Position numbers and translations under genes: made by a program. Positions 1,315-7,453 of a DNA stretch of 64,000 bases are shown one piece after another (position 1 is the stretch's first letter; every line of letters starts with the position of its first letter). This DNA is from Anaerofustis stercorihominis DSM 17244 (lineage in GTDB: Bacteria > Bacillota > Clostridia > Eubacteriales > Anaerofustaceae), in the NCBI RefSeq assembly GCF_000154825.1, contig NZ_DS560019.1:744001-808000 (forward strand), read 5' to 3'. Below the pieces are notes generated by a model that worked only from the letters and a program-made list of their open reading frames with translations, was not told the origin of the DNA and searched no databases.

Positions 1315-1480
1315 TTTATATCACCTGCTGTTTTTTATTATATTATAACATATATTTATTTTTATGTTGAAAGTCATATTACTTAAATATTTTATTGTTA
1401 TATTTTTAGTTATTAAAAAATAATACTTATAAGTTATGTTATTATATATAAAATGTGATATTGAGAAACGGAGAGAAAAT

Positions 1481-2407
1481 ATGAAGGGAAAAGTTATATG
1501 TAATATAGAGGATTTATTTATTCCTATATATGAAAGTTTAAAGTTACTCATAGGATGTGAGGTAGTATTTATTTATAATAATAATAAACATACTTTATCC
1601 TTGGTCGGAGATGATAACGGGAGTACAAGGGAAATATGTGATTTTTATTTGGATGATAAAAAATTTAATTCACTTGAAGAGTTGAAAAAGTATGGTATTA
1701 TCGACGGGGAGTATTTACTTGATATTAAAGAAAAAATCGAAGTTGTTTCAATAGATGATGAACCTGCTGTAGGTTATATCCCATATACTGAATTTATTGT
1801 CGGGAATGATAAATTAAAGGATAAAAACAAAAAATATAAGAAAAAATATGATAATCGTAAACCTATATTTATTTCTAAAGCTTCGCTTTTTATAAACTCT
1901 GTTAAAGATTTATTTTTAGCTCTTTTAGTTATTATTATAACAATATTAATATTTATGACTATCGTTGGAGTAATAAACTTAAATAAAACCGGACTTGGCT
2001 TAATGGATTTTATATATATGTGGTTGATTTTAATTATTATGTTTTTATGTCTGATGTTATTTTGTTCTCTGCGTTCAATTAAATCTATCATATACATTAT
2101 TAATCAGGAGAAAGAATTTAATATAAATTTCAATGATTATTTTAAGGATAAATATTTAGGTAAAGATTTGATTTATAAAACCGACGACTGGTTTATAGGT
2201 ATAGGTAGTACAGGGTTTATAGCTTTTAACAGGAATTATATAAGTAAAATATCGGCAATAAAAAAAGAAGGTACGCTGGGAAATCATAAGACTTTTACAG
2301 TTAAAGTCACAGATAATAAAGATAAAGTATTTAAGCTAAAGTTTAATTATTTGGAAGAGCCTCTGGTAAATGATTTTAAAAAGTGGTATTTAAAAAAAGA
2401 CAGATGA
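1481..2407 (+). CDS. Membrane protein of unknown function, two TM helices and PH-like C terminus
   Basis: I do not recognise this family. The start MKGKVICNI at 1481 is chosen because GGAGAG lies just upstream; the frame stays open to 1436 without a better site. It gives 308 residues. The N-terminal ~125 residues are soluble, then a basic linker, two hydrophobic helices near residues 140-165 and 175-200, and a C-terminal ~100-residue beta-rich part with alternating strands that resembles bacterial PH-like domains (weak inference). It carries an F-N-SLEEL segment also seen in the broken gene at 4317. It ends at a bidirectional terminator shared with the convergent transporter gene. Confidence 0.7.
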   Translation: MKGKVICNIEDLFIPIYESLKLLIGCEVVFIYNNNKHTLSLVGDDNGSTREICDFYLDDKKFNSLEELKKYGIIDGEYLLDIKEKIEVVSIDDEPAVGYIPYTEFIVGNDKLKDKNKKYKKKYDNRKPIFISKASLFINSVKDLFLALLVIIITILIFMTIVGVINLNKTGLGLMDFIYMWLILIIMFLCLMLFCSLRSIKSIIYIINQEKEFNINFNDYFKDKYLGKDLIYKTDDWFIGIGSTGFIAFNRNYISKISAIKKEGTLGNHKTFTVKVTDNKDKVFKLKFNYLEEPLVNDFKKWYLKKDR

Positions 2408-3363: not shown

Positions 3364-4020
3364 CTACCACATTAGGTTTGATATTATTTCAAATTCAGTT
3401 TGGGACTCGGTTTTCTTTTTCTCCTTATATGGAAAGCTTTTATCGTATTCATTGAATTCTTGTTCATTTATTTCAAAATCTTGACTTTCCATAAATCTAT
3501 ATCCATCCGCATCATTTAGATACCCCTTTTCTAATTCCATAGCGAGAAGGGGAACCGCATTTTTGCCTTCTGCGGTTTTTATGCCATATTTTATACCTAA
3601 AGTAAAACCAAAGTGCTGGTACAGTTTAGGATTTCCATATATTACGATTGCTTTATGAGCAAGTTTTTTAGCTTCAGCTATTGAGTGAATTATTAGCTTG
3701 CTTCCGATACCCTGCATTTTATATTCAGGGATTATACTTACCGGACCAAAGCTTATTATGTTTTTTTCATCATTATTTGATGAAATAAGTTTGGAATGAG
3801 TATATCCTATGTGACCTATGAGTTTATTATTTTTTTCTACTACGAATGCAAGTTCTTTTATATAATCCTTGCTTGAATGAAGTTTGTTTAATATATAATG
3901 TTCAAAACACCCTTCCTGATATACATTAAAAAATGCTTCTCTTGTTATATACTCTGTTTCCTTATAATCTTCTTTGGTTTCTTTTCTAATAATATAATTC
4001 TTTTTCATGTTATTCTTCAT
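3364..4020 (-). CDS. GNAT family N-acetyltransferase (YhbS-like)
   Basis: Predicted acetyl-CoA-dependent N-acetyltransferase; the acceptor is unknown. The early REAFFNVYQEGC segment, the acetyl-CoA loop PEYKMQGIGSKLI (about residues 96-108) and GNPKLYQHFGF (about 130-140) match the YhbS/COG3153 branch. 218 residues. The start is uncertain: MKNNMKK at 4020 has only a weak AAGG upstream, and Met5 is an alternative. A strong promoter, a structured ~155-base leader and a terminator lie immediately upstream (4054-4250), so expression is probably controlled by premature termination. Confidence 0.83.
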   Translation of the reverse strand: MKNNMKKNYIIRKETKEDYKETEYITREAFFNVYQEGCFEHYILNKLHSSKDYIKELAFVVEKNNKLIGHIGYTHSKLISSNNDEKNIISFGPVSIIPEYKMQGIGSKLIIHSIAEAKKLAHKAIVIYGNPKLYQHFGFTLGIKYGIKTAEGKNAVPLLAMELEKGYLNDADGYRFMESQDFEINEQEFNEYDKSFPYKEKKKTESQTEFEIISNLMW

Positions 4021-4053
4021 TTCTTTATTTAACCTTAAATCATATTACCTTAC

Positions 4054-4214
4054 AAAAAAAGACATGATAATACCATGTCCATATCAATAATATTTCGGTA
4101 TTCGTTTGATACTTTTGCAAGATATTAAAACAAAAATAACTACGGTTATCTTAATAAGCTATTAAAACCTTACAGTATCGGTAACAAACAGACACCACCT
4201 TTTCTGTTTTATAT
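4054..4214 (-). ncRNA. Structured leader RNA or sRNA ending in an intrinsic terminator
   Basis: Reading leftwards from a good promoter, the RNA folds as a long hairpin: GGUGU (4192-4196) with AUACC (4097-4101), GUUUG (4185-4189) with CAAAC (4104-4108), GAUACU (4174-4179) with AGUAUC (4108-4113), then GUAAG with CUUGC, capped by an AUAAC-CGUA-GUUAU hairpin. It is followed by a terminator GACAUG-loop-CAUGUC plus seven U (4054-4079), 33 bases before the GNAT start. AAUACC (4097-4102) can instead pair with GGUAUU (4069-4074) in the terminator, which gives a competing antiterminator. I do not recognise a known riboswitch class. A stand-alone sRNA, including a 6S-like RNA, is the alternative. Confidence 0.5.
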
Positions 4215-4220
4215 AAATGA

Positions 4221-4250
4221 ATTATATCATAGATTTTTAATTTATGGCAA
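4221..4250 (-). promoter_or_regulatory. Sigma-A-type promoter for the leader/GNAT gene
   Basis: -35 TTGCCA (4245-4250) and -10 TATAAT (4221-4226) with an 18-base spacer. Predicted start is near 4214, immediately before the structured leader. Confidence 0.6.
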
Positions 4251-4316
4251 TCTTATTTATTTGATAAAAACTTATAAAGATTATATAATAAATTAAATAA
4301 GTATAAGGAGAATTAA

Positions 4317-4508
4317 TTGAAAGAGTTTTTGTTTCCTGTTTTTAATATAGACGAGTTATGCAGATACAATTCGTCAAATATAAAAGATTTTATAAATGAC
4401 TGTGACGGAAAAAACTTCAAATCATTGGAAGAGATTTCTTTTATCGGTAATATGATTGCTTTTTTTATTATTTTTTTTAATGCAGATAATATTAACTTTT
4501 ATATGTAA
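4317..4508 (+). pseudogene. N-terminal fragment of a frameshifted membrane protein gene
   Basis: A TTG start at 4317 has a good AAGGAG six bases upstream (4305-4310), and the frame runs 63 codons. After GNMIAFFIIFF it leaves the hydrophobic pattern and stops at 4508, while the hydrophobic reading continues in the +1 frame (4456-5553). The switch falls in two T runs (seven T at 4460-4466, eight T at 4471-4478). Removing one T fuses the frames into a coherent first transmembrane helix. This is probably the true 5' end of the next entry. A sequencing error, a real mutation or slippage would all look like this. Confidence 0.6.
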
Positions 4509-5553
4509 ATTATATTTTGGTGTTTTCCCTTGGATACTGTTTTTTATATCCTTACTTTTATATATCGTGTATGCTGTTACTTTTTATAAATATAAAAAAG
4601 ATATGACAAATAGTTTATTTGGATTTAGATCTAAGATCATGGCAAGTATGCTTGTATCGAGTATATTTTTAGGGATAAGCAATATCTTATGTATGTTATT
4701 TATTAAAAATCATTTTTATTTAATGACATTACCTATAATATTAACCATTTCTTTATTATTTGTTTTAATATTTTATAGAATATCATCGAAGTTTTATTAT
4801 CAGTTTTTTACAGATGGAAAAATGAATATAAAATTCTATATATTCGTAGCTTTAGCTCTTATACTATTTTTACCATTGTATTTTTTAATCCCTAATTGGT
4901 TTTGCATTATCGCATTGATATTTTCATATTTTTGTTTATTTGTCAGTGTACCTATCAGTATATGTAATTATAGGTATTACGAAGAATTTGCCAATATTTA
5001 TAAGTCTTATATAAATAACGATAGAGTAGAGAGTATTAAAGATTTATCTGATATCAAAGGTAAAAAGTTCAGACATATGTGGAGCCTTGGTTTTTATGTA
5101 GTTATGACACCCCTTGCTCTATCGATTTCTATAATGTGTATGATTTGGCTTTTTGATATTAAATATATAGGTATACTGCTTATGTTTATACTAGCATTTG
5201 TTTTTGTTATACCTTTGGTAATATTAAATTATTTATATTTGGGAAAAATAAATATAGTAGCTGATGAAGAGGGAATAAGCACACTGAGAGAATATACAAA
5301 ATGGCAGGATATAAGCTCCGTTCATTATGTCGCGGCGTCATATAGTAAAATCAGTTATTCACCGAATAAAATATATATTTATACTTACAAAGGTGAAACT
5401 ATAGAAATAAAAAAAGGCTCGTATTTATTTCTTATTTATTTAAAAAAATATCATCCGGATATAGTTACTACAAATGAAGGATTAAAATCATATTTTTCTA
5501 TAGGAATTATAATAGGGGTAGTTCTTGGTGTAATATTTAAATTTATAAAATAG
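4456..5553 (+). CDS. Polytopic membrane protein of unknown function (main part, frameshifted 5' end)
   Basis: I do not recognise this family. The frame carries about eight hydrophobic helices over ~300 residues, followed by a soluble C-terminal stretch of ~70 residues with alternating strands that resembles a PH-like domain, and a final short helix. There is no ribosome site near its own possible starts (TTG at 4456, ATG at 4480), whereas the fragment at 4317 has one. The intact gene would therefore be 4317-5553 with a one-base correction in the T runs. The overall plan (helices plus PH-like tail) recalls the proteins at 1481 and 6482. Confidence 0.6.
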   Translation: MLFLLFFLMQIILTFICKLYFGVFPWILFFISLLLYIVYAVTFYKYKKDMTNSLFGFRSKIMASMLVSSIFLGISNILCMLFIKNHFYLMTLPIILTISLLFVLIFYRISSKFYYQFFTDGKMNIKFYIFVALALILFLPLYFLIPNWFCIIALIFSYFCLFVSVPISICNYRYYEEFANIYKSYINNDRVESIKDLSDIKGKKFRHMWSLGFYVVMTPLALSISIMCMIWLFDIKYIGILLMFILAFVFVIPLVILNYLYLGKINIVADEEGISTLREYTKWQDISSVHYVAASYSKISYSPNKIYIYTYKGETIEIKKGSYLFLIYLKKYHPDIVTTNEGLKSYFSIGIIIGVVLGVIFKFIK

Positions 5554-6481: not shown

Positions 6482-7453
6482 TTAATTATACATTTCAAGT
6501 CTTTTAAAAACCGATAATAATTCATCAAAATTATCATAACTTTTGGGAATTACTATTTTTCTTTTATATGTACTTTCATCTTCTCTTTTAAGTTTTAAGA
6601 TGAGTTTGCAGTTATTTTTATTAATAGATAATTTTTCTACAGAATTTATTTCCTGTCCGTATGTATATATGTTTCCTGAAGACATAATGTTTTCAATGAT
6701 ATGGTTTTTATCTATTTTATTTATGATTTCAGCATTTTGTTTGCTGTTAAATATGTAGCTTATAATAGCTAATATATTACTTATAGTTCCCGTGCTTACT
6801 ATATTGATTTTGGTACGACTTTTAAATTCTCTTGAATTATAATCAAATAAATATAATTTTTTATTTTTATCCATTGCAAATGTTAAAAGCATGGAATTTA
6901 TAAGAATTCCTATTTTAAATGATAATGATACTAAAACTATACCAAATAAAATCACTGTAAAACATGATATTATGTTTCTTATCTCTTTCGGTAAGTATAT
7001 TAAGGAAAAAAAGGTGAATCCAATTAAAAGAATAACAGCAACAAGTAACATAATAAAGAGATAAATAATTCCGTATTTTATATAATCTTTGGGTGCGTAA
7101 TCATTATATTTCCCAATATGTATATCATTATCCTTTATAAATACTTGATTATTGATATTTTTTATGTTATCTGAATTTTTGTCAGAGTGACTTATTTTAT
7201 ATTCACTTTTATCATAGATTATATTTTCTTCTTTACTATTTTTTTTGACTAATTTTATACCTAATATTAAAAGGTAAATAAAAATGATAATAGATATTAT
7301 ACAAAAAGCAAATACACTTAAACCACCATCAATACTCCCAAATTCAAAGTATTTCAGCAATTCATTTATAATCATAAAAGTAAATAATAAAATGCCCAGA
7401 CTGCTTAAACATATCAATAAAACTCCACTAAGCTTTTTAAAATAGCTCAACAC
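6482..7453 (-). CDS. Four-helix membrane protein of unknown function
   Basis: I do not recognise this protein. The start is TTG at 7453, chosen because GAGGAG lies seven bases upstream; an in-frame GTG one codon earlier would be too close. Of 323 residues, hydrophobic helices lie near 8-30, 43-66, 126-152 and 158-185. The rest is a charged linker (67-120) and a soluble C-terminal ~130 residues ending in strand-rich sequence. A MerR-type promoter (7609-7639) points at this gene from ~155 bases upstream. It could share an origin with the genes at 1481 and 4317, which combine helices with a beta-rich tail, but similarity by eye is weak. Confidence 0.65.
   Translation of the reverse strand: MLSYFKKLSGVLLICLSSLGILLFTFMIINELLKYFEFGSIDGGLSVFAFCIISIIIFIYLLILGIKLVKKNSKEENIIYDKSEYKISHSDKNSDNIKNINNQVFIKDNDIHIGKYNDYAPKDYIKYGIIYLFIMLLVAVILLIGFTFFSLIYLPKEIRNIISCFTVILFGIVLVSLSFKIGILINSMLLTFAMDKNKKLYLFDYNSREFKSRTKINIVSTGTISNILAIISYIFNSKQNAEIINKIDKNHIIENIMSSGNIYTYGQEINSVEKLSINKNNCKLILKLKREDESTYKRKIVIPKSYDNFDELLSVFKRLEMYN

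Follow-up and report, generated by a model that had tools for sequence, protein, structure and literature searches.

Upstream open reading frame (uORF) attenuators in Firmicutes are best known ahead of resistance genes, e.g. ABC-F, erm and mef. The leader of C. difficile cplR carries a uORF encoding MR[I/M] and is described as induced by retapamulin and lincomycin (PMC10201436). The E. coli uORF toiL, which regulates topAI-yjhQ, is responsive to drugs of several classes (PMC12121999). Eight uORF candidates are described in PMC11109978, and none of those named there lies before a GNAT acetyltransferase gene. A search of open-licence papers returned no report of such a leader before a GNAT.

The leader analysed here is located in a stretch of 64,000 nucleotides from Anaerofustis stercorihominis DSM 17244, referred to as the window. 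It probably acts as a uORF attenuator, of the CplR/VmlR/MsrDL type, on an operon that encodes a GNAT and an AEC transporter. The leader is read in this way because a Shine-Dalgarno sequence (SD) followed by a short ORF exceeds what shuffled sequences give, the ORF is kept as MLPVM in a same-genus relative, and other clades of the GNAT family bear leader peptides.

Organization of the leader and the downstream operon

The leader RNA (~4214-4054, minus strand) lies between a promoter and the GNAT acetyltransferase gene (3364-4020, minus), which is adjoined downstream by the gene for an AEC-type membrane transporter (PF03547; 2419-3339, minus). The genus sample consisted of three genomes, the window's own (G000) and its two same-genus relatives (G001 and G002). 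In all three, the GNAT is on the same strand behind the leader and the AEC-type transporter gene is downstream of it. The GNAT protein of G002, the closest relative, is 80% identical to the window copy, and that of G001 67%. Alignment with relatives suggests that the real GNAT start is the ATG at 4008 (ATGAAAAAG, chosen via comparison with G001) and not the ATG at 4020. The gap of 33 bases given in the initial annotation is correct from the terminator end to ATG 4020, but the alignment favours ATG 4008.

The promoter, the structured RNA and the terminator claimed in the initial annotation were all recovered. The promoter-like element (TTGCCA at -35, TATAAT at -10, 18-nt spacer, TG before the -10; 4250-4221, minus; 11/12) is among the three best promoter-like matches in the surrounding 3 kb, where such matches are no more frequent than shuffles predict (20 against 22.0). 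The RNA from 4214 to 4052 has a folding energy of -36.9 kcal/mol (z -3.28), and 1/200 shuffles were equally stable. The intrinsic terminator GGACAUGGUAUUAUCAUGUCUUUUUUU (4080-4054, minus) has a helix of 9 pairs (4080-4060, -9.0 kcal/mol) and then a U run. Three terminators were found in the surrounding 3 kb, two of them being one two-way element, against 0.8 expected.

The predicted fold of the leader is one long imperfect hairpin enclosing a short ORF, MLPIL, with inner P1 over the start codon and P2 over the stop. The 5' strand of P1 (4196-4182, minus) consists of GGUGU (outer) and UGUUUG-UAC (inner, over the uORF start codon). Its 3' strand is GUAUCAAACGAAUACC (4112-4097, minus). Within this enclosure, the P3 hairpin AAGAUAAC-CGUA-GUUAUUUU, then UGUUUU (4152-4133, minus), is weak (-3.7 kcal/mol). 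A search of the window's own genome at E up to 0.001 matched the leader once. When the leader DNA was compared with the genus, the only convincing matches were the window locus and two orthologous loci. Other matches in the genus look like chance in A+T-rich sequence.

On the other side of the promoter, a divergent gene for a membrane protein (4317-5553, plus) is in two frames split around a T-rich run at about 4460-4482. Its G002 orthologue is a single frame of at least 408 aa. Because that orthologue reads unbroken, the split in the window copy reflects a frameshift, a sequencing error or a tract that varies in phase. The membrane-type proteins at 1436-2407 (plus), 4317-5553 (plus) and 6482-7453 (minus) have zero Pfam matches. 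Those at 1436 and 4317 have in common an 'SLEE' stretch near the N-terminus and are possibly paralogues of each other.

A candidate uORF as the best-conserved block of the leader

The SD of the leader ORF, AAAGGTGG (4202-4195, minus), forms a duplex with the anti-SD of -11.7 kcal/mol and lies at a normal distance ahead of TTG TTA CCG ATA CTG TAA (4187-4170, minus), encoding MLPIL and a stop. In dinucleotide shuffles of the window leader, an equally strong SD with a short ORF arose in 1/1000. A GTG upstream of the uORF (VSVCYRYCKVLIAY) was considered as an alternative start and rejected, its SD being weak (-2.5).

The leaders of G000 and G001 align with a score of 77, which 0/2000 shuffles reach, and in a 31-nt core 28 bases match and 3 differ. 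The G001 ORF is TTG TTA CCG GTA ATG TAA, encoding MLPVM. The differences within the ORF give I/V and L/M, and the stop is kept. For the G001 leader, 0/300 shuffles gave an equally strong SD and short ORF. Inner P1 (UUGUUAC with GUAUCAA) is identical in the two genomes. P3 is retained as well, one pair having changed from G-U to G-C; in G001 it forms a strong hairpin of its own (-9.3 kcal/mol), trailed by U-rich sequence. Outer P1 and P2 have no counterpart in G001, nor has the terminator. In G002, the terminator and the stretch before it are retained, and the P1 5' strand is missing. The G002 alignment scores 29, reached by 15/2000 shuffles, and the aligned part is the 3' half. An NTG-started short ORF behind an SD was not found in the G002 leader, where the candidates start with AUC or AUA only. 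Each relative thus keeps one half of the arrangement, G001 the uORF without the terminator and G002 the terminator without a normal uORF. No other observation speaks as strongly against one fixed mechanism as this split retention.

In the order sample, the SD-uORF motif was present in 2/67 genomes, one copy each, both ahead of a GNAT of the window type, and the reversed control gave 0. The motif was not found in viral contigs. When the regions upstream of 86 GNATs were scanned blind, only 8 had an SD-uORF at <=15/300 shuffles, about twice chance; the region of the window row (L021) begins too late for the uORF and its SD, so the scan does not cover the window uORF. From the comparison of these leaders, the best-conserved block reads as a ribosome binding site and a 5-codon ORF rather than an aptamer core.

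The initial annotation had proposed a riboswitch-like leader that it could not match to a named class. An orphan metabolite riboswitch would have its aptamer in 4196-4097, and the ligand would stabilise P1, thereby favouring the terminator. The stability of the leader, the presence of a terminator and a strand with two pairing options (see below) speak for it. However, the block kept best is the SD and ORF, and the multi-helix fold as a whole (outer P1, P2, terminator) is in neither relative. Among the three sequences, the only helices kept in G001 are P3, with its single G-U to G-C change, and inner P1. A covariance search against Rfam at gathering and permissive thresholds, covering the window and six relatives, gave no family at cut-off; the best sub-threshold match was ncr1241 (E 0.33), in the terminator region only. 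A riboswitch is therefore unlikely. Support remains for the part of the earlier reading in which the GNAT gene has a cis-acting leader based on a terminator.

Alternative pairing at the terminator

The AAUACC of the P1 3' strand (4102-4097) can pair two ways, with the upstream GGUGU or with the terminator's GGUAUU. Among shuffles, 37/2000 contain a strand with equivalent double pairing, so the double pairing exceeds usual chance. In the comparison with the G001 and G002 leaders it is not conserved, since G001 is without such a terminator and G002 is without the 5' partner and without a matching terminator strand for AAUACC.

The effect of a ribosome on the uORF was modelled by equilibrium folding. 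When a mask standing for a ribosome was placed on the uORF region, P1 was lost and GUAUCAA took a new partner, UUGAUAU, next to the terminator. Once the transcript includes the complete terminator, the probability is 0.00 for the antiterminator and 0.94-0.95 for the terminator, whether the mask is present or not. Thus, although P1 over the uORF start is lost under the mask, the terminator forms in every folded state. When the 3' end was set at 4063 (terminator incomplete), the probability of the antiterminator was 0.38 in the absence of a ribosome; placing one at the start codon raised it to 0.52, and placing one at codon 5 lowered it to 0.12. A stall at the start codon would therefore shift the antiterminator in the right direction in this model, by a small effect, and the coupling step is one that we infer. 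The competition for AAUACC on which the initial annotation had relied exists as a potential pairing, but is in neither relative, and as a decisive switch between terminator and antiterminator it was rejected at equilibrium, where the completed terminator dominates all folded states.

Leader peptides in other clades of the GNAT family

The GNAT was searched in overlapping samples of the family (13 genomes), the order (67) and the class (391), in plasmids and in phages, and a second family member was searched against the class sample. Two further clades of the window GNAT family have leader peptides. NTLE-type leaders, roughly M-x-K-[YN]-N-T-L-[ED]-I-V-x-stop, occupy the same place before the GNAT and have a clear coding signal. 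They include MIKYNTLEIVA, MKKNNTLEIVG, MKKYNTLEIVG and others, all TTG-started, and are also carried on plasmids (MRNNTLEIAG on Selenomonas ruminantium plasmid pSRC1, MKKNNTLESVG on a Pusillibacter faecalis plasmid). Two GNAT copies of G010 carry the leader peptides MKKFSRLQESVM and MQKFSRLQELVL.

The NTLE DNA pattern matches 9/391 class genomes (reversed control, 0), and 9/9 places are before a family GNAT or its remnant: six before an intact GNAT, one before a copy cut by the contig end, one before a truncated copy and one with an insert between. When upstream regions from the second-member search were read, an NTLE leader was adjacent in 8/29 loci and at a distance in 1 more; the leader peptide is not present in every member of the family. 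Viral contigs gave five stretches with the pattern, of which L092 is cut off. Two other viral stretches, L131 and L132, are not followed by a GNAT and match by chance.

Exactly 11 codons are found in 15/17 NTLE leaders. Over 15 distinct 11-codon leaders, single-base codon differences in frame were 201 synonymous to 198 non-synonymous, and in the other two frames 36:191 (36 with stop) and 13:232 (38 with stop); these counts are not independent events, because they are taken over pairs of related sequences.

Four segments were recognised in the NTLE leaders. Segment 1 comprises the last leader codons (GAGATTGT), segment 2 comes after the leader stop (GGGAGGTTTGC), segment 3 is ACAATCTC, and segment 4 (GCAAACCTCCC) is followed by the SD of the gene (AGGAGG). 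Helices 1:3 and 2:4 are mutually exclusive, and segment 4 is able to cover the gene SD as an anti-Shine-Dalgarno sequence. This layout is the classical translational attenuator design, as in erm- and cat-type leaders. In 14 complete leaders, helix 1:3 had a mean of -8.8 kcal/mol with its own strands and -6.6 with swapped strands, and helix 2:4 had -17.8 and -14.9 kcal/mol, respectively (0/5000 permutations for each). Both alternative helices have compensatory change. No covariation was seen between segment 4 and the SD in these leaders, both being nearly invariant (2120/5000 permutations). By our reading of single-sequence folds, the SD-covered form is obtained in 8/14 leaders and the alternative form in 6/14. 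Predicted folds of the NTLE-type leaders contain alternative structures that would couple occupancy of the uORF to the gene SD.

The GNAT tree has separate supported groups for the three genus members, for the clade with NTLE leaders and for the G010 copy. Rows L077, L078 and L079 of the tree are G001, G000 and G070, labelled 'none' owing to the merging of duplicates; L028 is a fragment, and the tree does not include L030 or L081. The NTLE count takes in L097, whose same-genome leader L129 is about 390 nt upstream, beyond an insert. The window and NTLE leaders need not be homologous, because their GNATs sit in different supported clades. From these sequences, the leader peptides could be either one old leader that has diverged or the product of several separate origins.

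Further variation was noted in the family. In the Clostridium relatives L033, L034 and L076, ATG ATA CAA AAG TAY CTC TAG (MIQKYL and stop), then a hairpin, is upstream of the GNAT; the Tyr codon varies synonymously and the SD is not clear. Several class-sample matches are within open frames of about 390-690 aa. A Roseburia sp. 831b plasmid (L089, 944-2524) encodes a fusion of a family GNAT with a ribosome-assembly GTPase of the RsgA type, which may hint at a role of the GNAT at the ribosome. A distant relative of about 32% identity is found in SPbeta-like phages (Bacillus phage SPbetaL4, L087, 995-1528).

Proposed mode of action

RNA polymerase would begin near 4214, and a ribosome would load at AAAGGUGG and translate the 5-codon uORF MLPIL. 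On normal completion of the uORF, the leader would close as one long hairpin over it, and the terminator at 4080-4054 would end the transcript. A ribosome stalled on the uORF would keep the hairpin open, and more transcription would pass into the GNAT and transporter operon. The stall site would most plausibly be the start codon or the stop, like drug stalls on other very short uORFs. We infer the use of the uORF, the stalling, the inducer and the way in which an open leader would defeat the terminator.

In classical attenuation, scarce charged Leu, Pro or Ile tRNA would slow the ribosome on MLPIL, and the Leu-Pro-Ile-Leu codons are indeed in series with a terminator. Such an amino-acid-responsive leader is improbable, as the downstream GNAT and AEC transporter form no recognisable biosynthetic operon, two codons are changed in G001 (Ile to Val, Leu to Met), and the leader residues of the other clades are quite different. 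A stand-alone small RNA (4214-4054), with the GNAT transcribed by read-through or from another promoter, would account for the leader's own promoter and U-tailed terminator, but is very doubtful, since the middle is not conserved as RNA in G002, 3/3 genus members have the GNAT next in the same orientation, and neither 6S, which the initial annotation had raised, nor another catalogued RNA was matched at cut-off (6S models: none at gathering in the window, none listed at E up to 10 for 3980-4300).

Comparison with known systems

As a probable uORF attenuator, the window leader adds to an established kind of element. More interesting is that leader peptides recur ahead of a single orphan GNAT family. 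Repeated uORF attenuators before this one uncharacterised family suggest that its enzymes answer translation stress, possibly through modification of a drug that acts on the ribosome or of a component of the ribosome itself. Tentatively, it may be an unrecognised family that is switched on by stalled ribosomes and thus probably by ribosome-targeting drugs. At least three clades would then differ in their leader peptides (MLP[IV][LM]; x-NTLEIV-x; FSRLQ-x-x-x) through separate acquisition or diversification, and the codons of the NTLE leader would themselves form one arm of the switch. The repeated attenuators offer a cheap test and a route toward the function of a widespread orphan family.

Within the family, the NTLE-type leaders resemble the window leader in a UUG-started ORF, a similar SD-to-start spacing and the gene family that follows; they differ in their 11 codons, the NTLEIV motif, the translational (anti-SD) design and the GNAT clade. 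The operon under toiL is uORF-controlled, as is proposed for that of the window, and includes a GNAT, YjhQ, as its second gene (PMC12121999). YjhQ and the window GNAT are distant kin (25% identity over 83 aa). Unlike the window leader, toiL is described as hiding the topAI ribosome site, with Rho, and the first gene of its operon is the toxin of a toxin-antitoxin pair (PMC12121999). The msrDL uORF (MYLIFM) shares with the proposed window uORF a hydrophobic peptide of 5-6 residues ending at UAA, and transcription attenuation at an intrinsic terminator, which for the window is the predicted mode (PMC10314930). In msrDL the stalled ribosome itself blocks the terminator (PMC10314930), whereas about 90 nt separate the stop codon from the terminator in the window. 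The cplR leader regulates an ABC-F protein, and its terminator also hides the SD of the gene, unlike that of the window; its drug induction has been demonstrated (PMC10201436). Like the leader proposed for the window, and likewise in Clostridia, the cplR leader has a very short uORF in a 5' hairpin and then a U-tailed terminator before the gene (PMC10201436).
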